A stretch of DNA of 64,000 nt. Source: Gammaproteobacteria bacterium. GTDB taxonomy: Bacteria > Pseudomonadota > Gammaproteobacteria > Enterobacterales > Alteromonadaceae. Positions 3,916-28,612 of this stretch are shown one piece after another; the stretch's first letter is position 1; every line of letters starts with the position of its first letter. The stretch spans positions 1 to 64,000 of the forward strand of contig JAHKAA010000016.1 in the NCBI GenBank assembly GCA_018825965.1, given 5' to 3'. The position numbers and the translations under genes are program-made. Below the pieces are notes generated by a model. That model had not been told where the DNA came from, did no database searches, and worked only from the letters and a program-made list of their open reading frames with translations.

Positions 3916-6030
3916 TTACCACTGCCACATCAGTTGCAAACTAGCCTGTTGCGGCTCCCCCGGATAAACCACAAAACCATTGCCAGAAGCTGTGTAATAC
4001 AGCTCATCCAGCAGGTTGTTCACCGCCAGTTGAGCGGACCAGTTGCTTTGCTGATAGCGCAGACCTGTGCCTATCAGAGTGTAGGCATCCAGCTCCCAGG
4101 CTGAGCCTGTGATTAAAGGCCTGCCACTGCTGTAATTTGCCCGCACAAAAGCCGACCATTCATTGTCATATTGCCAGTTGGCGCTGAAGTTCAACCGATG
4201 ACGCGCCAAATCGCCCAGCGTATTGCCGACATCCGTATCATTACTTTCCGTGATTTCGCCATCCATGTAGGCATAACCAGCTTGTAATAGCAGAGCAGCA
4301 TTTAACTGCCAACTGCCCTCTAACTCCACACCGTCCACGCGTTGTTCGCCACTATTGACACTAAAATCTGAGTCAACAGGGTCTGTGGTCAGTGCATTTA
4401 AGCGTTCTATCCGGAATAGCGCGAGGCTGCCACTGAACTCATCCGCACTGTAACGAACACCTAACTCTGTCTGAGCGGATTCTTCCGGTTCCAGCGCATC
4501 CCCTGTTCTGCTGCGTGCAGCAGCACTGCTTTCAACATCAAAACCTGTGTTATGACCAATAAATACAGTCAGTTGCTCCTTGAGCTGCCAGGTCAAGCCC
4601 AATTGCCAGATAGTGGATGATACAGGCACCCAGTTTGCGGCAGTGCCCCATGCTCCACTGCCCGCTTTACTGTCGGTGTAGCGCACTGCACCTATCAATT
4701 GCAGCTGTGGGGTTAATTTGATTTGGTCCTGCAAATACCAGGCGTCTGAGTCCAGGTTGTAGAAATTATCAAAACCAAAATCCAGTACAGGATCTTGTGT
4801 GTCATATTGGTACTGCGGGTTATTTATATCGACAGGGGTTAAAGTACCGGCCCTGATATTGGACTGAGTAAAACGGCCACGCTCCCGACCCGCTTCATAA
4901 CCCAGCAAGACTTTGTGCTCTAAAACACCAGTAGTCACACGACTATTTAAATCCAGCTGTGCTATCTGGTAGTCGTCATTTTCGCGCCCCTGACGTCCGG
5001 TGCGGCTGATCAAGTCTGGCTGACCTGCGACTGGAGCACGTAAATTCACCTGACCAAAGACGGTATTAAATTCCTGATATTGTAGACGTGGCGTCAAAGT
5101 CCACTGCTGACTGAGTTGGATATCCAGCCAATATTGATACAAAGGCGCGAAGGAGCGCAGACTGGTAAAGCCCGGCTCACCCAATTGGCTGCTGATATCA
5201 AGCGCCTCCTCATCCTGATCAGGCAATACTACGGACACAGGTAAACCGACATAACGGTCGGTTTCACGTTTGATATATTCAGCGACAAAATGGCCCGTTG
5301 CTTTATCTCCGATCTGATGCTGTAGCATCAGACTGATATTGTTTCTGTCCATCGGCTGACGATCAACAAAAGTGTCTGAGCGCTCCATTTCACCCATTAA
5401 ACGTAACGACACAGTATCAAACAGATTTTTGCTGATATCCCCATTCGCGACTTTTTTATGGTCAGTGCCTAACCTGAAGCCTGCGCTGCCGCTGTTATCT
5501 GCGCCTGGTGTTTTGCTGACCAGATTAATCACCCCACCCACAGCAGACTGGCCATAAAGCACACCGGAAGGGCCTTTTAATACTTCCATCCGCTCTATGC
5601 TACCCAGCGCAGACGCATCCACATCCTCAAAATAACGCTGGCGCATGCCGTTACGCATCTGGTCGGCACCAAAACCGCGGATCTTCAGACTAAAAGACTG
5701 ATAAGGCCCTACCCGCGAATAACCGGGATTTGCACTGGGAATATCGCGTAATAAATCCCCAACAGACACCAACCCTTGCTCCCGCATCTGATCCACATCC
5801 AGCAGTTGAATACTCTGTGGTAACTCTTTTAATAAAATGCCTGACTTGCTGCCAAAGGTATCGCTTTGACGCTGTCCAAATACACTGAAACGCTCCAGAC
5901 TGACTTCAGTCACAGCGTCAGCTTTGCTTTGTTCGCCAGCTATGGCAGAAAAAGAAAGCACAGAAAATGAGAGCACAGAAAAAGCCTGTATACAGGCCAG
6001 ATTCAGCAGTGTTATGCGGGGGGATTGCAT
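3916..6030 (-). CDS. TonB-dependent siderophore receptor
   Basis: The 704-residue protein has a signal peptide (about 1-31), a plug domain with 'GVLYGQSAVGGVINLVSK', and a beta-barrel ending in aromatic 'LMWQW', as outer-membrane receptors do. The early segment 'SGILLKELPQSIQLLDVDQM' resembles the TonB-box/plug start of the FpvA/FhuE siderophore receptor group. It would import a ferric siderophore with TonB energy. It is first in an operon with a PepSY membrane protein. A Fur-like site lies 139-157 bp upstream. The particular siderophore cannot be told from sequence. Confidence 0.92.
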   Translation of the reverse strand: MQSPRITLLNLACIQAFSVLSFSVLSFSAIAGEQSKADAVTEVSLERFSVFGQRQSDTFGSKSGILLKELPQSIQLLDVDQMREQGLVSVGDLLRDIPSANPGYSRVGPYQSFSLKIRGFGADQMRNGMRQRYFEDVDASALGSIERMEVLKGPSGVLYGQSAVGGVINLVSKTPGADNSGSAGFRLGTDHKKVANGDISKNLFDTVSLRLMGEMERSDTFVDRQPMDRNNISLMLQHQIGDKATGHFVAEYIKRETDRYVGLPVSVVLPDQDEEALDISSQLGEPGFTSLRSFAPLYQYWLDIQLSQQWTLTPRLQYQEFNTVFGQVNLRAPVAGQPDLISRTGRQGRENDDYQIAQLDLNSRVTTGVLEHKVLLGYEAGRERGRFTQSNIRAGTLTPVDINNPQYQYDTQDPVLDFGFDNFYNLDSDAWYLQDQIKLTPQLQLIGAVRYTDSKAGSGAWGTAANWVPVSSTIWQLGLTWQLKEQLTVFIGHNTGFDVESSAAARSRTGDALEPEESAQTELGVRYSADEFSGSLALFRIERLNALTTDPVDSDFSVNSGEQRVDGVELEGSWQLNAALLLQAGYAYMDGEITESNDTDVGNTLGDLARHRLNFSANWQYDNEWSAFVRANYSSGRPLITGSAWELDAYTLIGTGLRYQQSNWSAQLAVNNLLDELYYTASGNGFVVYPGEPQQASLQLMWQW

Positions 6031-18969: not shown

Positions 18970-19228
18970 TGTAGTCCTCAGCTATGTCTGTCCACTAATG
19001 CCCTGATTGTCATAAAAAACAACGATACGTTCAGCATCTATACCAGGCCGCTGAGCCTCCCGCGTGAATTGCTCTGCTACAGGAAAGGCGTGAACTTGTG
19101 TAGAGGTTAAATCACACAATGATGTTTCCCGACATTTATGCGTAGATGCTGCATGAACTGGTATTCACACTACTTATAAAAGCGAAAAACTACAATAACT
19201 TAACAACTGAGTTAGATTACAGACAGAA
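18970..19228. other. Intergenic region with a possible gene remnant
   Basis: No intact gene is present. On the minus strand an open frame without a start, about 18990-19145, ends 'GIDAERIVVFYDNQGISGQT' and reads like coding sequence, so it may be the tail of a lost gene. I cannot name a family. Confidence 0.3.
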
Positions 19229-19230
19229 AA

Positions 19231-19250
19231 AAGCCCCGAAACCGGGGCCT
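19231..19250 (-). terminator. Terminator of pepD
   Basis: A GC-rich stem GCCCCG / CGGGGC lies 26 bp beyond the pepD stop and is followed on the minus strand by a T6 run (seen as A's at about 19227-19232). Confidence 0.8.
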
Positions 19251-19275
19251 TTATTCTGATGACCGATTTGCTGAG

Positions 19276-20736
19276 TTAAGCTCGCTCAGGAATACGCTCC
19301 AGCACAGCGAGCAATAATTCCCAGTACTGACCTACAGTAGTGATATTCACCATTTCATCCGGACCATGCGGGAAGCGGATAGTCGGGCCTATCGACACCA
19401 TATCCATATCCGGATAAGGCTTTTTAAACAAACCACATTCTAAACCAGCGTGGATCACCATAATGACCGGCTCTTTGTTATAAATATCCTGATAAGTGTC
19501 GCGCACTATGGCCATCACTGGTGAATCCGGGTTCGGTTTCCAGCCCGGGTATGCGCCGCTGAATTTCACCTCTGCGCCCGCTAACAACGCCAGTGAACTT
19601 AACATGCTTTCTACCTGTTCACGGCCACTGTCTATTAATGAACGGATTAAACAGAGCACCTGAATGCTGTTTGTTTTGGTGCTGATCACGCCCATATTTA
19701 ATGAGGTTTCAGTCACGCCTTCTACTTCATCACTCATCCGTATCACGCCGTTAGGGCAGACATTGAGTAAGTGGATCAGTGTAGTTTGAGTCGCAGCGGT
19801 CAGTACCTGAGCCGGAGTAACCACCTCGGCCAGACTGAGTTTTAATGCAGGTTCAACAGCAGCTAATTCAAACTGCAACAAGGCTTCAAACTTTGCCACC
19901 GCTTGTTGCAACCGGGTCAGTTTTTCCGAAGGCACAGTGAGCGTGACTGTCGCTTCACGAGGTATCGCATTACGCAACGAACCACCGCTAAAGTTGGCGA
20001 TGGTTAATTCCAGTTCTGTTGCATGGTCAGCTAAAAAACGTGCCAACTGTTTATTGGCATTGCCACGGCCCAGATGAATATTCACACCTGAGTGGCCACC
20101 TTTTAAGCCTGTCAGACTTAAATCAAAAGCGATAACGCCAGTAGCTGCAGCTTGCCACACGACTGGCACTGTAAATTCAGCGTCTACGCCGCCGGCGCAG
20201 CCCATGTAAATTTCGCCTTCCTGCTCAGAGTCAGTATTGATCAGAATTTCGGCATCCAGCATGCCAGGTTCTACACCAAAGGCCCCTGTCATACCTGCTT
20301 CTTCGTCTATGGTCAGCAGCACTTCCAAAGGACCGTGTTTAATCTCATCACTGCCTAAAATGGCCAGAGCTGAGGCCATGCCTATACCGTTGTCGGCACC
20401 TAAGGTTGTGCCTCTGGCTTTTACCCAGTCACCGTCGATATACGCATCTATAGGATCTGTTGTGAAATCATGGTTTTTATCAGCGTTTTTCTGCGGAACC
20501 ATATCCAGATGCGCCTGGATCACCACCACTTTACGGTTTTCAAAACCTGGTGTTGCAGGCTTTTTAATGATCAGGTTGCCCACTTTGTCTTCAACCACAG
20601 TTAAGCCTTTGTCGCGCGCCCAATGTTGAATATGCTGGCTTAACGCCTGCTCGTGTTTCGACGGGTGCGGAATAGCACAAATTTGATCAAACCATTGCCA
20701 TAAAGGCTGCGGATATAAGGATGATAATGCTGACAC
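19276..20736 (-). CDS. pepD: Aminoacyl-histidine dipeptidase (PepD, M20 family)
   Basis: The 486-residue protein is a full-length M20 metallopeptidase of the PepD/carnosinase type. Metal motifs seen are 'VIQAHLDMV', 'GTTLGADNGIGMA', 'TIDEEAGMTGAFG' and the C-terminal 'HAGLECGLF'. 'GGHSGVNIHLGRGNA' belongs to the lid/dimerisation domain. It hydrolyses Xaa-His and other dipeptides in the cytoplasm. It is monocistronic with its own terminator. It marks the return to core genome at the right end of the accessory stretch. Confidence 0.95.
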   Translation of the reverse strand: MSALSSLYPQPLWQWFDQICAIPHPSKHEQALSQHIQHWARDKGLTVVEDKVGNLIIKKPATPGFENRKVVVIQAHLDMVPQKNADKNHDFTTDPIDAYIDGDWVKARGTTLGADNGIGMASALAILGSDEIKHGPLEVLLTIDEEAGMTGAFGVEPGMLDAEILINTDSEQEGEIYMGCAGGVDAEFTVPVVWQAAATGVIAFDLSLTGLKGGHSGVNIHLGRGNANKQLARFLADHATELELTIANFSGGSLRNAIPREATVTLTVPSEKLTRLQQAVAKFEALLQFELAAVEPALKLSLAEVVTPAQVLTAATQTTLIHLLNVCPNGVIRMSDEVEGVTETSLNMGVISTKTNSIQVLCLIRSLIDSGREQVESMLSSLALLAGAEVKFSGAYPGWKPNPDSPVMAIVRDTYQDIYNKEPVIMVIHAGLECGLFKKPYPDMDMVSIGPTIRFPHGPDEMVNITTVGQYWELLLAVLERIPERA

Positions 20737-21178
20737 AACAACTCCTGATTAAGACGCTCAGCTAAAAACGCCGACATTTTAACATAAAGCACAGCGAACA
20801 AAGAACGCCGCCGCTCTGAGTGCCCAGTGTAACAGGCTCAGTAAAATGGCTTTAGTGTAAAGATGCAGTGTAGCTGATCGTACAAAACCTTAGCGACGAC
20901 TAGTAGCCCCGAACACAAGCTGCAGTGAGGCACACTAAGTGCCTACCTGGTTAAGACTCTCCTGCACCAGACCAGCGGCCATTCAGGTGCAGAAACACTG
21001 ATTGAGTGAGCGTCTGATGCTTAAGTTTCTGTTTACATTTACCGATGTGTCATACGCGACAACCCACGCTCCAAAAAAGCAATTTAAAATCAAAGGCCTA
21101 ACAAATAAAAAGCCTCTAAAAAAAGACCCAAAGTGAGTAGATGACTAAATTTTATTAGCCAAAAAAGGGAAATACCTA
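20737..21178. other. Intergenic region between pepD and the darobactin-like cluster
   Basis: These 442 bp separate divergent units and hold no recognisable gene. The right half becomes A/T rich, in step with the RiPP cluster that follows, suggesting the junction of acquired DNA lies near 21050. No tRNA or obvious direct repeat marks the boundary. Confidence 0.4.
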
Positions 21179-21207
21179 TTGAAAAAAAGAAAATACCTGT
21201 GTAAGTA
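21179..21207 (+). promoter_or_regulatory. Possible promoter of the RiPP cluster
   Basis: TTGAAA (21179-21184) is followed after 17 bp by TAAGTA (21202-21207), preceded by TGTG as in an extended -10. Transcription would begin near 21214, giving a leader of about 43 nt before the precursor ATG. The -10 match is weak, so this is tentative. Confidence 0.3.
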
Positions 21208-21256
21208 TGTGTATTCGGCACAGGGGCCGTTAACAGTAATTATGAAGGAAATTAAC

Positions 21257-21439
21257 ATGATTATCGAAAAAACTAAAAAGTCCAACGATTTAGCGACCAA
21301 ATTAAACGCGCTTAAAAGCAGCTTTTCTGGTCAAACCTTGAGTATTGCCAACGTGAATCAAGCTCGTGTTGACAGTATTTCGGTTGCTCCACCAATTACC
21401 GCCTGGAACTGGTCTAAGTCATTCGAAAACGCAAATTAA
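21257..21439 (+). CDS. darA: Darobactin-type RiPP precursor peptide (DarA-like)
   Basis: The 60-residue peptide ends 'ITAWNWSKSFENAN'. Residues 50-56 (W50-N51-W52-S53-K54-S55-F56) are exactly the darobactin A core. 'ITA' just before the core and the leader segment 'LNALKSSF...LSI' (17-30) match, as I recall them, the Photorhabdus DarA leader. In darobactin the mature product is this heptapeptide with a W1-O-W3 ether and a W3-K5 carbon-carbon crosslink, and it blocks BamA in Gram-negative outer membranes. The C-terminal follower ENAN differs from the known QEI tail. The start at 21257 is chosen for its AAGGAA ribosome site. Upstream TTG/ATG starts would lie in the likely promoter or the ribosome site. 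Confidence 0.95.
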   Translation: MIIEKTKKSNDLATKLNALKSSFSGQTLSIANVNQARVDSISVAPPITAWNWSKSFENAN

Positions 21440-21474
21440 TTGCCACTCCGTAGTACTAAGTAATGAAGTTAACC

Positions 21475-21509
21475 AGCAGTCAGATACTTTTTATTTGACT
21501 GCTATTTTT
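21475..21509 (+). terminator. Attenuator-type hairpin after darA
   Basis: AGCAGTCA / TGACTGCT forms an 8-bp stem, followed by ATTTTTCC, between the precursor gene and the first enzyme gene. Partial termination here would give excess precursor over enzymes, as in many RiPP operons. Confidence 0.6.
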
Positions 21510-21523
21510 CCTAGAGCAGCCCT

Positions 21524-22576
21524 GTGAATTTATTAACTAAGACTCTTCCGCAATGCCTTAAATGGCAAGATCCTGAGTTTGCTGAAATATTTAAACATCA
21601 TAAGCTCAATATTGTGGTTGATGTATTGCAAAAGACGATCACCCAGTCCCCCAATTTGCATGAGCTGTTTGACCTTTGGTTTGGGCTGCTCACGCAAGAA
21701 GAGCTAGAACATGCTTTACTATCGCCAAAAATATGGAAGTTCCTGATAGCACAACAACAAAGCGAGCAATTTTCTGACGCTTTAAAAGCCTTGATACAAT
21801 TTGAAATCAGTGTTTTACAGCAAGCAGCCGAACCAAAAAAATTTATTCACCACACTTCACCTTCGCTACAGTGGAATCTGCTTACCAATGAGGCTCGCAA
21901 CACTGCAGGAGAAATTTACAAAAACCCATATAAACACTTAGGGTTTACCGTAGATTTGTTCAGTGATCTGGTTCGTGGTGAACAGCGCGATATCCCATGG
22001 AGTGACAGTGGTTTTACTGAAGTTCAATGTGAAAGCGCAGTATCAAAAATCACTGCAGCATTAGATTTCATCGAAAGGCTATCACCGCCATGCTTTACTA
22101 TAATGCAATCGTCGATTCACACCATTGCAGTAAGGTTTGATAGCAGTCGTCCCCGATTCAATTGTGCATCCACTAACTACGTCAATGGTATGGTTTTCAT
22201 CATTAACCCAGATTTGCCAGAAGTTAGTACTGAAACCATCGTAGATGCACTAGTGCATGAAATGACACATAATCTGTTTGATATTGCAGAACTTTACGAA
22301 CCCTGCGTACCCACCAAGTTTCATCCGGGAACAATACGTTCGCCTTGGACTGGACGCTTACTCGACCCCAACACTTATGTCCAGGCTTGCTATACATGGT
22401 ACGGCCTGAAAAATTTTTGGGCCCTTGCACAACAGAGAATGCCTTCTCAGAACACAGCCTTATACCTTCAACAAGCTCAACGGGGTTTTGCCCAGATAGA
22501 GCATATACATGCAGTCAACCTGTCTGGTTTTACCTTTGACGACAAAATAATTGCAACTTTACAATCATTACAATAG
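21524..22576 (+). CDS. HExxH-type putative peptide beta-hydroxylase in the darobactin-like cluster
   Basis: The 350-residue protein starts at GTG. It carries H245-E246-M-T-H249 in 'DALVHEMTHNLFD', followed by 'YVQACYTWYGLKNFW', the arrangement of HExxH-motif putative peptide-modification proteins now grouped as alpha-ketoglutarate-dependent peptide beta-hydroxylases. No zinc-protease third ligand context is obvious, so hydroxylation is favoured over proteolysis, but a leader peptidase cannot be excluded by sequence. It sits between the precursor and the radical SAM gene (13 bp from the latter). To my knowledge the Photorhabdus darABCDE set has no such gene, so an additional modification of the WNWSKSF core is suggested. 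Confidence 0.75.
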   Translation: MNLLTKTLPQCLKWQDPEFAEIFKHHKLNIVVDVLQKTITQSPNLHELFDLWFGLLTQEELEHALLSPKIWKFLIAQQQSEQFSDALKALIQFEISVLQQAAEPKKFIHHTSPSLQWNLLTNEARNTAGEIYKNPYKHLGFTVDLFSDLVRGEQRDIPWSDSGFTEVQCESAVSKITAALDFIERLSPPCFTIMQSSIHTIAVRFDSSRPRFNCASTNYVNGMVFIINPDLPEVSTETIVDALVHEMTHNLFDIAELYEPCVPTKFHPGTIRSPWTGRLLDPNTYVQACYTWYGLKNFWALAQQRMPSQNTALYLQQAQRGFAQIEHIHAVNLSGFTFDDKIIATLQSLQ

Positions 22577-22589
22577 AGGGAATTGCTTC

Positions 22590-23900
22590 ATGATAGGTGA
22601 TATCGAAATTCAGGTAATAGACAACAATGATGTAGAGCTACAACTCGATCCCAACCTGCAGCTATCCAGTTATCAGTACGCCAGACTGGCATCACAACTC
22701 ATTGGCGAGATCCCTGCAGCTGAAATGCTTGATGATGAAGAACTCCTTGCATTCCAACAAATAAAACAACAACCATTCAATGCTCAACCCCTGCAAGCAG
22801 GCAAAGTAGTAGTCGTTTTAAAAGCAACCCGGCTCTGTAATTTGCGCTGTACCTATTGCCATTCATGGGCTGAAGGGCCAAATCAAACGGTAAAATTCAC
22901 GACCTTAGTGACCATAGTGAAAAAAGTGCTGGCTATTCCTAATGTTTCAAGGGTTGAGTTTGTTTGGCACGGCGGCGAAGTGACTTTACTTAAGCCCCAA
23001 TTTTTCAAGAAGTTGATTTGGCTACAGGAGCAATTTAAACGCCCTGACCATCACATAACTAATACGATGCAATCCAATGCAGTGAACATCTCTGATGAAT
23101 GGCTGACGTTCTTAAAAGGCATAGGTATGTCGGTAGGGATTAGTTTTGACGGCGTTCCTGAAATTAATGACAGCCGCCGTATTGACCTTAAAGGCCGCCC
23201 AACCAGCCACAAAGTCGCTGCAGGAATCCAAAAACTTAAAGAATATGATATTCCTTATGGGGCTTTAATTGTTGTTGACCGCGCAGTTTACGAAATAGAT
23301 GCAGAGTATTTATTGAGTTATCTGGCATCTATTCAGCTGAACAATATTGAGTTTTTGAATATAGTTCCTGACAACCGCGCCCAACCCGGAGATGACATCG
23401 GCGATAACTATATTAGTTACGCCGAGTACATTCAGTTTCTTATTCGTGTCTATCAAGTTTGGCATCGGGAATACCGTGATGTGATTAAAATCATCATGTT
23501 TGAGAATTTTGCCGAAGTACTGACAGATCAAACTAAAACTTTATCTGCTTGCTACTGGGCAGGAAACTGTTCCCAGGAAATCATCACCATCGAACCCAAT
23601 GGTGACGTATCACCCTGTGATAAATACGTTGGTGATCCGGGCAGCATCTATGGCTCGTTACTAAATTCTGATCTCGCTGTCTTATTAAAAGATTCACACC
23701 ACAATAAAACCGCTGTGCAAGAAGAGCTTGATTCACAAACCCAGATGCACGAATGTGAATGGTTCCAGATTTGTAATGGTGGTTGCCCCCATGACCGTGT
23801 TATTAACCGTCGTCATGTAACTGGCTATGATGATAAATGCTGCGGCACAGGTAAGCTTTTAAAAGTAATAAAAGACTCGATGTGCGAAACCATCGGATAA
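22590..23900 (+). CDS. darE: Radical SAM/SPASM crosslinking enzyme, DarE-like
   Basis: The 436-residue protein has the radical SAM motif C83-x3-C87-x2-C90 in 'CNLRCTYCHSWAEGPNQ' and a GGE-type 'VWHGGEVTLL'. Its C-terminal SPASM region carries the cysteines of 'CYWAGNC', 'SPCDKY' and 'CEWFQICNGGCPHDR'...'CC' for two auxiliary iron-sulfur clusters. It belongs to the cyclophane-forming SPASM group. With the WNWSKSF precursor next door it should be the DarE that installs both the Trp-O-Trp ether and the Trp-Lys carbon bond. The start at 22590 is chosen for the GAGGG ribosome site; the longer TTG frame overlaps the preceding gene. Confidence 0.92.
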   Translation: MIGDIEIQVIDNNDVELQLDPNLQLSSYQYARLASQLIGEIPAAEMLDDEELLAFQQIKQQPFNAQPLQAGKVVVVLKATRLCNLRCTYCHSWAEGPNQTVKFTTLVTIVKKVLAIPNVSRVEFVWHGGEVTLLKPQFFKKLIWLQEQFKRPDHHITNTMQSNAVNISDEWLTFLKGIGMSVGISFDGVPEINDSRRIDLKGRPTSHKVAAGIQKLKEYDIPYGALIVVDRAVYEIDAEYLLSYLASIQLNNIEFLNIVPDNRAQPGDDIGDNYISYAEYIQFLIRVYQVWHREYRDVIKIIMFENFAEVLTDQTKTLSACYWAGNCSQEIITIEPNGDVSPCDKYVGDPGSIYGSLLNSDLAVLLKDSHHNKTAVQEELDSQTQMHECEWFQICNGGCPHDRVINRRHVTGYDDKCCGTGKLLKVIKDSMCETIG

Positions 23901-23910
23901 CGGAGTCGTT

Positions 23911-25614
23911 GTGGTAGTAAATACGATCCAAGATGTCATTAAACAGACGTGCCTGAAAAGCCGTCTTACGATACTTATGGTCTTTCTTCTTAATTTATTA
24001 ATTTTAGCAAGTTCCTTTGCGATCACACTAACTGTGGAACAGCTATTTAATACAGAAATAAACCAAGTCACTTTAAACAATTTTACTGCCATTATTATCG
24101 GGTTGCTGATTGCTTTTTCAGCAGCCACTGGTATACGGCAGAAACTCACTAATGATTTTAAAGAAAGAGCCGCGCTGGCTATCTTTAATTTTACTATCAA
24201 CAAGGTACTTCGGCGGGAGCAGGAGTTTTTTGATGAAATCAGTGCTGCTCATATTCACTCGCAGATCAACTACGACCTCCATGCTATTAAAGTATGCATT
24301 CATTTTGTATTAAATATTTTAATGCAAAGTCTCGGTGTTCTGAGTGTAGGATTTATTTTCCTGTTCTATACCAACGCCAGCATGACTTTGGTTTCACTGG
24401 CTATTGTGCCTGTCGTTATCATTATGATTTTTAAGATAGGAAGTTATGCAGCGACTGCGAATCAATTCAGGAAACAGGCTAACAGCGAATTCGACAGTGC
24501 CTTTATTGAAGGATTCGGCGGGATCCAGTCCGTAAAAGTGCATCGCATTGAATCATTATTAAGCGATACACTCAAATCCAAATGCGAGCACGCCTTTGCA
24601 TGTGCCAGAAAACTCCATCTCCTTGAATCACTGACCTCAACCCTTGTCATTTTCGGCAGTTTTTCCAGTCTGGTGTTGGTACTTTGGTTAGGTGGCGGCT
24701 ATGTCGTGGCTGGAACTATACAAGTTGGTGAGCTTGTTGCGTTTGTTATGGTATTGCTATTGATATCCTACTCCCTGGCATCGATTAGTGATGTCAGCTC
24801 TGTCTATATCCGCTCTAAGGCAGCACTACACAGCCTTAATATTTTTGTTGAATTACCACCTAAAACAAGCTCCCGGCAGCTTGTTGTCACTCAGCCGGTT
24901 GAGCAAATCAGGTTGGAAAACCTGAGTTTTAGCTACAAAAACTCAAATTTGAGTTCACTACAGGCTCTGAATTTTCGCTTTGAAAAAAATAATGTTTATA
25001 CCTTAATTGGCAAGTCAGGCTCAGGCAAAACAACCCTGGCAAAACTTATTAGCGGCCTCTATCAAAGCTATGAAGGGCAACTGATATTTGACGAAATTAA
25101 TCTTGCAGCAATTGACAGTGAAAGTTCGTGCACACAAGTAGCTATCGTAGAACAACAACCATTCTTTTTTAAAGGCACTATCCAGCAAAACATAACGTTG
25201 CATCATGACTGTATTAATGAGGACAGGCTCAAATTAGCTGTTGAATTATCTTGCTTCGATCAAGTATTGGAAAAAAACCAGCTCTCTTTAGATAGTGACC
25301 TGAATACAAACAGCACAAATTTATCTGGTGGCGAACGGCAACGCCTGGCTATCGCAAGGGCACTTTACTCAAATACAAATGTGCTGATCCTGGACGAAGC
25401 GACCAATGCCTTAGACTGCGCGACAGAAAATCGTTTTTACCGTTATTTGAATGACATTAAACAGAACAAAATTGTGATTTGGATAACCCATAACTTACAG
25501 GCCATAGAATATTCTGACGTGGTGTTAGTCATGGACAATGGGCAGTTAGCCGCATCAGGTTCGCCTGAACAAATAACAGCTAATCATTACTTCAAAAAAA
25601 TCAGCGCACAATGA
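23911..25614 (+). CDS. ABC exporter (fused permease-ATPase) of the darobactin-like cluster
   Basis: The 567-residue protein starts at GTG behind CGGAG. An ABC-type I exporter membrane domain of six helices (about 15-300) is followed by the ATPase. Walker A 'GKSGSGKTT' is near 367, signature 'LSGGERQRLAIARAL', Walker B 'VLILDEATNALD' and an H-loop 'WITHNLQ'. There is no N-terminal C39 peptidase domain, so it exports without cutting the leader. Known darobactin clusters use a three-gene MacAB-like transporter instead, so this is a replacement. It probably moves the modified peptide across the inner membrane and may provide self-protection. Confidence 0.9.
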   Translation: MVVNTIQDVIKQTCLKSRLTILMVFLLNLLILASSFAITLTVEQLFNTEINQVTLNNFTAIIIGLLIAFSAATGIRQKLTNDFKERAALAIFNFTINKVLRREQEFFDEISAAHIHSQINYDLHAIKVCIHFVLNILMQSLGVLSVGFIFLFYTNASMTLVSLAIVPVVIIMIFKIGSYAATANQFRKQANSEFDSAFIEGFGGIQSVKVHRIESLLSDTLKSKCEHAFACARKLHLLESLTSTLVIFGSFSSLVLVLWLGGGYVVAGTIQVGELVAFVMVLLLISYSLASISDVSSVYIRSKAALHSLNIFVELPPKTSSRQLVVTQPVEQIRLENLSFSYKNSNLSSLQALNFRFEKNNVYTLIGKSGSGKTTLAKLISGLYQSYEGQLIFDEINLAAIDSESSCTQVAIVEQQPFFFKGTIQQNITLHHDCINEDRLKLAVELSCFDQVLEKNQLSLDSDLNTNSTNLSGGERQRLAIARALYSNTNVLILDEATNALDCATENRFYRYLNDIKQNKIVIWITHNLQAIEYSDVVLVMDNGQLAASGSPEQITANHYFKKISAQ

Positions 25615-27125
25615 AATTATATAAGGATTATGCAGTGAATACGTTTGAAATAATTATTATTGGCGCAGGTCCTGCTGGCTTGCAGCTCAGTTATTTTCTT
25701 AAACAAGCCAATATCTCCCATATCGTTTTGGAAAGGGCGGACTGTGCCGGGAGTTTTTTCACAACCTACCCGCCTCACAAAAAACTGATATCCATCAACA
25801 AAGTTAATACCGGGTTTGACGATGATGATAAAAATCTCCGTTGGGACTGGAATTCACTTTTAAGCAAAGGGCATAACCTCTTACTCAAGCAGTTTGATCA
25901 AAGTTACTATCCAAACAGCGATAATTTAGTGGCCTACCTCAACCAATTTGCACAGCAACATCAGTTGCCGGTTTTGTATCAGTGTGCAGTATCTATGGTC
26001 GAAAGACACCAGGAACAATTTCTGGTCACAACGGCGCAGCAAGAGCAATACTGTGCCCGCTTGGTGGTTGATGCTACAGGTACAGGAAAAGCTAACGTAC
26101 CAGATATCGAAGGCATTGAGCATGCCCATGCTTACGCAGAGATGAGTAATGATGTCAGTGCATTTAAAAACAAAAGAGTCCTCATTTTAGGTAAGGGAAA
26201 TTCAGCTTTTGAAACAGCAGACAGCCTGCTGCAGAGTGCCGCCAACATTCACTTAATAAGTCCTAATGATTTCAATTTTGCCTGGGTTACGCACTATCCA
26301 GGTCATTTACGTTCAGTGAATCAGGGATTTTTAGACACTTTTTTCTTGAAACAGCAAAACGCGATTCTGAATGGAAAAGTGAAGTGGATCCGGGTTAATG
26401 ATAAAGGAACATTAGATGTTGAAATGATGTTCTCTGAAGACAATGATATCGAAGTTAACCAGTATGACGCTGTCGTCAATTGCACCGGATTTAGCTGTGA
26501 ACTTAGCTACTACGATAAGGCGATTACGCCTAATCGGTGTTTACATGGCAAATTCCCTGAGCTAACAGAAAACTGGGAAAGCACTAATGTCCCTGGGCTC
26601 TATTTTGCGGGCACAAATATGCAATACAATGACTATAAAAAATCTTCAACACCTTTTATTCATGGTATCCGGCATAATGTTGAAGCTCTCAGCCAAATAC
26701 TGATCAGCAAATTACGCAATACACCACTACCGTCAAGTAAAATATCTGCACAACAATTATATTCCTCTGTTTGCGAACGGATCAGAAAATCTGCATCTGT
26801 CTGGTTTTTATTTGGCAATATGTACGATGTATATCAAAACACAGATGATGGCGCTTATCAGTGTTTTAAAGACATTCCACGGCTGGTTTTTGAACGTGGT
26901 GAACAATTTAATCAGTTCAGTGGTTATATTTTAATGTTTAGCTATGCCATTCCTCAGGATGAAAATGAACGTAAAAAGTTCTCACAACATGGATTTTTAC
27001 ATCCAGTCGTGCGGCAATATGCTCAAGGAGAGATAGTGGCTGAGCGACATATGCTTGAAGATATATATAGTGAGTGGGAAAACCTTGAGCGCCTGGATAA
27101 TGGGATTAGAGCGATGTTGAGTTAG
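25611..27125 (+). CDS. FAD-dependent oxidoreductase/monooxygenase of the darobactin-like cluster
   Basis: The 504-residue protein has an FAD-binding GxGxxG 'GAGPAG' at 18-23 and a second nucleotide motif 'GKGNSAFE' near 194 for NAD(P)H. 'FAGTNMQYNDYKKSSTPFIHGIRHNVEAL' late in the protein (described in part) fits flavoprotein monooxygenases of the FOXRED2/class B kind. The last 140 residues are family-specific. It overlaps the ABC gene by 4 bp (ATGA) and must be co-transcribed. A start at GTG 25635, behind AAGG, is an alternative. Its likely job is an oxidative tailoring step on the peptide; the target residue is unknown. Confidence 0.8.
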   Translation: MKLYKDYAVNTFEIIIIGAGPAGLQLSYFLKQANISHIVLERADCAGSFFTTYPPHKKLISINKVNTGFDDDDKNLRWDWNSLLSKGHNLLLKQFDQSYYPNSDNLVAYLNQFAQQHQLPVLYQCAVSMVERHQEQFLVTTAQQEQYCARLVVDATGTGKANVPDIEGIEHAHAYAEMSNDVSAFKNKRVLILGKGNSAFETADSLLQSAANIHLISPNDFNFAWVTHYPGHLRSVNQGFLDTFFLKQQNAILNGKVKWIRVNDKGTLDVEMMFSEDNDIEVNQYDAVVNCTGFSCELSYYDKAITPNRCLHGKFPELTENWESTNVPGLYFAGTNMQYNDYKKSSTPFIHGIRHNVEALSQILISKLRNTPLPSSKISAQQLYSSVCERIRKSASVWFLFGNMYDVYQNTDDGAYQCFKDIPRLVFERGEQFNQFSGYILMFSYAIPQDENERKKFSQHGFLHPVVRQYAQGEIVAERHMLEDIYSEWENLERLDNGIRAMLS

Positions 27126-27129
27126 AATA

Positions 27130-27168
27130 AAAGGACCTGGTTTTCTAGTGACGCAAACCAGGTCCTTT
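27130..27168 (+). terminator. Strong terminator ending the darobactin-like operon
   Basis: A perfect 14-bp stem (AAAGGACCTGGTTT / AAACCAGGTCCTTT) begins 5-7 bp after the last cluster gene. It marks the operon end and separates the TonB-like gene downstream. Confidence 0.88.
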
Positions 27169-27379
27169 GAACTTACTGCGTTTTCGAGAAATTGAACATT
27201 CCATCATTTTCACTGTCAGCCAAGTGAGCTAAGTCGGGACTCTGAAACCTACACCTTAAATTTGATCTAAAATCAGGAATTTTTATTTCACTCATGAAGC
27301 TGCTAATTCAACACCGAAGATCATATATCAGCATCCTAACATTAATAAACATTATTTAATCAAGTAACGGAGCTTTGCT

Positions 27380-28081
27380 TTGAAAGCATGGGGTATTTCT
27401 ATTCTATTTCATATTCTTCTACTCTTAATTGCATTGAACACTCATGTGCCCAATAAAATAGAAGAACCAGGTTCTGTTATTATTACCTCCTACACTTACA
27501 GTCAGGCAAAATCATCGCTCGCTCCAATAACTGAACCAGCCCCCTCCAGGCCAATTGAAAAGATAAGCACTCCGCCCAAGGTTGCGTCACCGGAAAAATC
27601 GAATTCAATTCATAAAGAAAAGGAAAAATCCCAATTAAATAAAACAGTCACTCACACTGCGGCTACAATTCAGCCTCAATCTGCAAATAATTCAATAAAC
27701 ACAAAAACAGAAACAAAAGAAACTCATCAGGGGATAAGCACGGGTTCTGCTGGGTTATCTCTTGCTGAACGAGCACTGGCTGCAGCATCAGGAGCATCTG
27801 CTGCACCACTTCCGGTCTTTAACAGTGATACAACAGAACCATCAGAAAAACCTTTTGTAGCGGACAATACTGGTATAACTCCCGCCATAATTAAAGAGAT
27901 AAAGAGTTATGCCGATGGTTCTGCTTTAGTAAAAGGAGCTAATGGTTGTTGGAAAGTTCCTCCGACAGAGGCTCGCAAAAATGCAATTTGGCTATCAACA
28001 TCAACTAAATGTGAACCAGACACTACAGTTGATGATATTAATAATATATTAGATAAACGAAGAGGCTATACCAGAGAATGA
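27380..28081 (+). CDS. TonB/TolA-like membrane-anchored periplasmic protein
   Basis: The 233-residue protein begins at TTG behind CGGAG. It has one N-terminal membrane helix with the SxxxH pattern (S7-I-L-F-H11) that TonB uses to contact ExbB/ExbD, then a long Pro/Lys/Glu/Ser/Thr-rich linker (about 45-140). It lacks a TonB C-terminal domain; instead the end is a compact segment with two cysteines ('GANGCWKVPP' and 'STKCEPD'). This looks like a relative using the same energised anchor for another periplasmic task. It is on the same strand as the darobactin-like cluster but after a strong terminator, so a link is unproven. Confidence 0.6.
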   Translation: MKAWGISILFHILLLLIALNTHVPNKIEEPGSVIITSYTYSQAKSSLAPITEPAPSRPIEKISTPPKVASPEKSNSIHKEKEKSQLNKTVTHTAATIQPQSANNSINTKTETKETHQGISTGSAGLSLAERALAAASGASAAPLPVFNSDTTEPSEKPFVADNTGITPAIIKEIKSYADGSALVKGANGCWKVPPTEARKNAIWLSTSTKCEPDTTVDDINNILDKRRGYTRE

Positions 28082-28196
28082 CTTCACTGTAACCAGCTAA
28101 GTACTTGCTCTGACGGTGACTGGTTTTGTACTGGTGTCTGCCAGCGAGACATCTCCTTCAATGCCTGATGCATTGATGGCTGACGCCACAGAGCTG

Positions 28197-28553
28197 TCAG
28201 CCGATAACAGCGCTGCCCAGTGTTAATGCACTGATAAGAAAAAAAACCAACCAGGACAAATGTTTACCTTTTGTATAGAAGCCAGACAAAATCCCACTCA
28301 GCGCAAAAACAACACTGACGGTTAATAAAACAGCAGTCGAGTCAGGCTGTACTATAAGCAGTGCGGCAAAACCCAACCAGGCCAAAGTTGTGATATGCCA
28401 GGCAAATCGAAGTGTTCCTTTGGTAAATTGATCACTGCCAAAAAGATGGGGCAGGTTATCCCGCTTAAACAAGCGGCTCAGAATATAGCGCTCTCCAAGA
28501 ATGGAATGCACCAATCCACACAACACGAGTAATAACGACGCAATAATCAGCAC
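28197..28553 (-). CDS. Small multi-helix membrane protein of unknown function
   Basis: The 118-residue protein has four predicted membrane helices. After the first is 'VHSILGERYILSRLF', then a loop 'DNLPHLFGSDQFTKGTLRFAWHI'. Similar uncharacterised proteins of about 120 residues are common in proteobacteria. Function unknown. Convergent with the TonB-like gene. Confidence 0.7.
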   Translation of the reverse strand: MLIIASLLLVLCGLVHSILGERYILSRLFKRDNLPHLFGSDQFTKGTLRFAWHITTLAWLGFAALLIVQPDSTAVLLTVSVVFALSGILSGFYTKGKHLSWLVFFLISALTLGSAVIG

Positions 28554-28612
28554 TATATTTCCTTAAAGGCTTAAGTCTGAATTAAACACGACAACAGACA
28601 GGCGCTGCCTGA

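Follow-up and report, generated by a model that had tools for sequence, protein, structure and literature searches.

The question of how a producer manages in the absence of DarBCD, with a BamA that resembles that of cluster-free congeners, is posed by a darobactin-family locus on the first 64,000 nucleotides of contig JAHKAA010000016.1 (assembly GCA_018825965.1; this whole stretch is termed the window), from a gammaproteobacterium of the Alteromonadaceae. New leads against Gram-negative bacteria are few and include the darobactins, whose natural tailoring past the core sequence is described in PMC12079272 as limited to one tested enzyme, DarH. The locus spans positions 21257–27125 and holds five genes, all on the + strand and with open frames, in the order darA, HExxH gene, darE, half-size ATP-binding cassette (ABC) exporter and FAD/NAD(P) flavoenzyme, separated by gaps of 84, 13, 10 and 20 bp (the last counted from the likely flavin-gene start at 25635). 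The letters and coordinates given in the original prediction, including the end of the last gene at 27125, were as stated. Read from its genes, the locus is an extended marine-type darobactin cluster without darBCD, and its likely product is a decorated darobactin A that would be exported by the half-size ABC protein. Its features are as follows.

21257..21439, + strand: darA, 60-residue precursor of leader, core WNWSKSF and follower ENAN (NF038004; match to Pseudoalteromonas luteoviolacea DarA)
21475..21503, + strand: terminator- or attenuator-like hairpin of 12 pairs followed by a T-rich stretch, in the gap between darA and the HExxH gene
21524..22576, + strand: HExxH protein, predicted Fe/alpha-ketoglutarate peptide oxygenase, motif HEMTH (TIGR04267)
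22590..23900, + strand: darE, radical SAM/SPASM darobactin synthase, cluster motif CNLRCTYC (NF038005; position in the DarE clade)
23911..25614, + strand: half-size ABC exporter, membrane and ATPase domains (PF00664, PF00005)
25635..27125, + strand, frame open from 25611: FAD/NAD(P)-binding flavoenzyme, candidate DarH orthologue (PF13738; Pseudoalteromonas homologues)
20872..28611, no strand: segment that congener G005 lacks at this site, comprising the cluster and flanking open reading frames (ORFs) (blastn against congener loci; GC content)

The precursor had been claimed to end in ITA-WNWSKSF-ENAN with the exact darobactin A core, and this was borne out: its C-terminal part reads SVAPPITA-WNWSKSF-ENAN, so that the bicycle-forming core type WNWx(K/R)xF is read directly, and it scored 70.4 bits against NF038004 (darobactin_RiPP; curated cut-off 45, E 9.9e-20). 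Comparison of the 60-residue precursor with known DarA, proposed at the same time, gave 75% identity over 57 residues to that of P. luteoviolacea. An AAGGA Shine-Dalgarno-like stretch lies upstream of the start, and the open frame itself reaches back to 21179. The precursors of P. luteoviolacea and Vibrio vulnificus are listed in PMC8694152, the latter stopping at the core Phe. Among other DarA precursors, a WNWSKGF core was seen in an Enterobacterales bin, Symbiopectobacterium, Cedecea, Klebsiella sp. BIGb0407 and a Serratia marcescens record, and WNWSKAF in a Martelella alba record (loci L006, L013, L014, L015, L017, L018 and L033; precursors near 5180–5530); both are position-6 variants outside the darobactin A–F cores in the accessible part of PMC8694152.

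The radical SAM gene expected two genes past the precursor was found at 22590–23900 and scored 746.5 bits against the DarE model NF038005, 96 bits above the cut-off of 650. A protein search returned 810 homologues at E ≤ 0.001, the window's own counted, and the best named ones were from Pseudoalteromonas at 72–76% identity, with P. luteoviolacea DarE at the top (76%). In a 39-row tree the enzyme grouped with eight rows, four named Pseudoalteromonas among them, with support of 100/100, while DarW, Leptolyngbya, Microbulbifer and other distant rows fell outside the DarE core. When the enzyme of a Vibrio crassostreae plasmid and others were added, a 13-row marine clade was recovered (100/99), with no settled position for the window's enzyme inside it. 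The phylogeny that had been suggested as a check thus placed the enzyme in the DarE clade, with Pseudoalteromonas and Vibrio relatives; DynA- and XyeB-type enzymes, outside the scope of the trees, were compared by model scores, and the window's protein lay far under both cut-offs (192.8 and 69.9 bits, each against 450). In 35 aligned rows, the three cysteines of CNLRCTYC were invariant, as were several C-terminal ones. Since precursor model, DarE model and DarE phylogeny agree, the cluster belongs to the darobactin family, as originally predicted, and the idea of a radical SAM enzyme outside the DarE clade falls away. Elsewhere, darE was split over two open frames in a Symbiopectobacterium record (L015, 10001–11383) and a Yersinia aldovae record (L029, 9929–11238), which suggests a broken gene or an assembly error.

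A scan of named genomes yielded 32 DarE-like loci, of which 29 were not from Pseudoalteromonas, five of these being cut by contig ends. Searches with the P. luteoviolacea cluster proteins (tblastn) located HExxH and flavin genes in the three Pseudoalteromonas loci and in 0 of the 29 others. With two further Pseudoalteromonas loci and the plasmid of V. crassostreae, the total came to 35, a count that leaves out the window and L034–L038 (wholly inside L002–L004, L039 and L040). WNW-type cores were present in 29 of the 35, after dropping L025, L026, L028 and L031 (another core or none of this kind) and L030 and L032 (contig ends). DarB, DarC and DarD homologues were detected in all 29, so that the window is the sole one of 30 without them. 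Among seven marine-type loci, window included, the ABC half-exporter was universal (7/7); the HExxH gene and a follower after the core were each present in six (exception V. crassostreae), the flavin gene in five (exceptions V. crassostreae and G417, with 25 and 18 kb covered), and DarBCD in six, the exception being the window. All five Pseudoalteromonas loci carried the HExxH gene and half-size ABC gene, and four of them the flavin enzyme, always together with darBCD. The earlier claim that the layout differs in gene content and order is right, with the correction that the extra genes are not unique and recur in Pseudoalteromonas clusters. A WNW-type cluster without darBCD is not described in the literature found, which was mostly open-access; the marine extended type is known in part, and the lack of darBCD and the host genus are new. 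These loci form a graded natural series, from ABC only, through ABC with HExxH, to ABC with HExxH and flavin, and last that full set without darBCD, and so lend themselves to direct tests of what the HExxH oxygenase and the ABC half-exporter do.

In the window, no DarB or DarC homologue was found, and DarD was matched only at 27% by the ATPase of the ABC gene. A search of the host genome with P. luteoviolacea DarB gave 0 matches, DarC and DarD not being searched genome-wide; the same query found DarB in 3/3 Pseudoalteromonas and in none of three host-genus genomes, host included. The absence of a MacAB-like transporter from the layout was thereby upheld. According to PMC9055067, DarBCD is usual in such clusters, dispensable for production in Escherichia coli and missing from cluster IV. 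The half-size ABC exporter is the sole transporter gene of the window cluster; PF00664 and PF00005 were its only Pfam domains above cut-offs, no C39 peptidase domain was found by Pfam, and homologues of 42–47% identity stood directly after darE in all six other marine-type loci. BamA is single-copy in the host. In an alignment drawn from the genus (22 genomes, less G010, where BamA had no match, and the split G011), no residue was private to the producer against 19 full-length congeners; BamA-based self-resistance as a producer-specific trait was therefore rejected. Because darBCD is missing and BamA lacks a producer-specific change, we infer that the ABC protein takes over both export and self-protection of the cluster, and would carry the product from the cytoplasm.

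The steps before export can be proposed by analogy and from predicted models. DarE would install two crosslinks on DarA, the Trp1-O-Trp3 ether and the Trp3-Lys5 C-C bond, and the trimming of leader and follower would fall to host proteases. The crosslinked peptide would be oxidised by the HExxH protein, a predicted Fe/alpha-ketoglutarate peptide oxygenase, most likely by beta-hydroxylation of a core residue (Asn2 being a guess). This protein scored 43.9 bits against TIGR04267 (cut-off 40), H245, E246 and H249 were invariant in 13/13 aligned rows, and its predicted model has a ChlH/SjiH (ChlH-like) fold. No HExxH gene in a darobactin cluster was described in the literature found, although the DarH paper, outside that set, may well describe one. 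The same protein could instead cleave the backbone oxidatively at the follower and leave a C-terminal amide, the follower being the substrate and the core not hydroxylated. Such cleavage has precedents in PflC and PosC (PMC12636437), and in all six marine-type precursors that have the HExxH gene a follower starts with Glu (ENAN or EK), while that of V. crassostreae, which lacks the gene, ends at the core Phe. However, one event in a single lineage could account for the 6-to-1 pattern, ChlH, a hydroxylase, is among the closest folds, darobactin is released from modified DarA by E. coli lysate (PMC9055067), and Photorhabdus and Yersinia precursors bear followers without an HExxH gene in the loci examined. 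Since such followers are common elsewhere, the link is kept only as a rival, and one that we consider unlikely.

For the decorated darobactin A favoured here, the second decoration would be added by the flavoenzyme, which may brominate Trp1 as DarH does. A dedicated darobactin halogenase, DarH, was already reported from P. luteoviolacea (PMC12079272), and a tailored marine darobactin type is therefore known. The window's flavoenzyme scored 168 bits against PF13738, and PF07992 was likewise above its cut-off. Its FAD and NAD(P)H sites lie in a single chain, with motifs GAGPAG and GKGNSAFET, an arrangement that DarH itself is said to have. The same holds for Bmp5 and AetF (PMC12615548). Identity was 58–60% to the Pseudoalteromonas gene at the same cluster place, and 58% to the sole flavoprotein among the scanned long ORFs of one P. 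luteoviolacea locus. The Pseudoalteromonas flavin gene is the best candidate for DarH, and the window's protein is a candidate orthologue. No mention of halogenation turned up in a search of PMC10726357, and a sequence search with the flavoenzyme found no solved structure named DarH. In Microbulbifer sp. A4B17, both a DarE-like radical SAM enzyme and a flavoenzyme relative were found (P0071 and P0130, 42% each), and a related tailored system may be present there.

Plain darobactin A might nevertheless be the product, with the HExxH and flavin genes inactive or acting elsewhere and generic host pumps exporting it. In E. coli, darA and darE alone are enough for darobactin A (PMC9055067, PMC8694152), and over the stretches covered the flavin gene is missing from one Pseudoalteromonas and both extras from V. 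crassostreae; yet the five genes of the window are open and, by the gaps given above, tightly packed, and key motifs are kept in alignments of 13 and 32 rows, which makes this reading improbable. Equally doubtful is a more specific version of the tailoring, in which the single half-size ABC protein exports and protects while the darobactin is both brominated and cut at the follower to a C-terminal amide by the HExxH reaction; a BamA inhibitor with both modifications is not described in the literature found.

Several points weigh against a decorated, ABC-exported darobactin A. The TIGR04267 match is just 4 bits above the cut-off, and the P. luteoviolacea relative, at 33 bits, is below it. Equating DarH with the window's flavoenzyme is a step of interpretation. 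Its homologues numbered 4116 at E ≤ 0.001 among 7995 candidates scored, and in so broad a flavin family function may vary. The predicted model was nearest to FMO/YpdA folds, its neighbours being monooxygenases and disulfide reductases, with no halogenase among the matches listed. The ABC protein matches models of generic MsbA/type-I-like exporters, all 25 among the matches listed being below cut-offs, and a genus-wide insensitive BamA would likewise show no private change. The product itself is a prediction from the gene content.

The host belongs to the same family as Pseudoalteromonas but to another genus, and the cluster is in a genus other than those found reported. The shared family is shown by genomes G413, G419 and G468, which are assigned to it and include stretches identical to named Pseudoalteromonas records. 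DarE was present in one of 22 host-genus genomes (the host itself), two of 395 drawn from the family (host counted), five of 108 Pseudoalteromonas genomes and three of 394 drawn from the order (the host and two of one other genus). At E 1e-60, two plasmid records carried it, V. crassostreae and a distant Cupriavidus, and a search of viral contigs with P. luteoviolacea DarE confirmed none. The flanks (window 19214–20871 and 28612 onward) have other genes between them in congener G005, namely those of an S41 peptidase and a GNAT acetyltransferase and an unassigned ORF, and congener G017 had like genes at that site plus one more; of six congener loci compared by blastn, three gave an alignment of the far flank. 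At 41.1%, the GC content of the cluster is lower than in the remainder of the window (46.2%) and below all 202 overlapping stretches of the same length. The simple reading is horizontal gain. The V. crassostreae LMG 22240 cluster (L075, 7381–15024) lies on a 237-kb plasmid typed as conjugative, and such clusters can therefore ride mobile DNA. A cluster that fell silent or began to decay once transferred, with darBCD loss as the onset, would suit the presence in the host alone of the genus and the absent darBCD, but is very unlikely given five genes free of stops and frameshifts and a clean 13-bp junction between the HExxH gene and darE. The acquired cluster is instead predicted to yield brominated and/or oxygenase-modified darobactin A.

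Inside the inserted segment, an ORF of 233 residues at 27380–28081 had relatives in 12/21 congeners and once more in the host genome, while at E 0.01 it was matched by neither NCBIfam nor Pfam. The hairpin at 21475–21503 may act as a terminator or attenuator; hairpins also occur 3' of darA in loci L002 and L004, its own folding z-score is weak (-1.63), and terminator-like sites across the region showed no excess over shuffles (6 found, 6.1 expected). A promoter scan of the region showed none either (14 sites, 16.0 expected).

The closest known system is the extended cluster of P. luteoviolacea, which shares the DarA leader subfamily (...APPITA-WNWSKSF-E) and has the HExxH gene, darE, half-size ABC gene and terminal flavoenzyme in the same order. 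In Pseudoalteromonas, however, darBCD lies between the HExxH gene and darE, the follower is EK rather than ENAN, and the ABC proteins are 44–47% identical to the window's. Plasmid p1 of V. crassostreae (NZ_AP025478.1) has darA, darE (71%) and a half-size ABC gene (42%) as in the window, but also darBCD; its precursor has no follower, and neither an HExxH nor a flavin gene lies in the 25-kb stretch. Photorhabdus khanii darABCDE shares the WNWSKSF core and DarE (59%, L027), but contains darBCD, and no HExxH, ABC half-exporter or flavin gene was found in the 21-kb locus. The Photorhabdus cluster IV daropeptides (WTFRF) resemble the window in having a DarE homologue and loci without darBCD (L025, L026), and differ in a monocyclic product core and an acetyltransferase in place of the extra genes (PMC9055067); short ORFs ending in WTYRF just 3' of the radical SAM gene in Leptolyngbya and Rhizobium DarE-like loci (L028, 11247–11459; L031, 11164–11352) resemble this monocyclic type. 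Finally, the HExxH protein has fold, HExxH motif and SPW region in common with the ChlH/SjiH-type alpha-ketoglutarate peptide oxygenases, but, unlike those, it is a stand-alone protein in a daropeptide cluster, with 13% identity in structural alignments.

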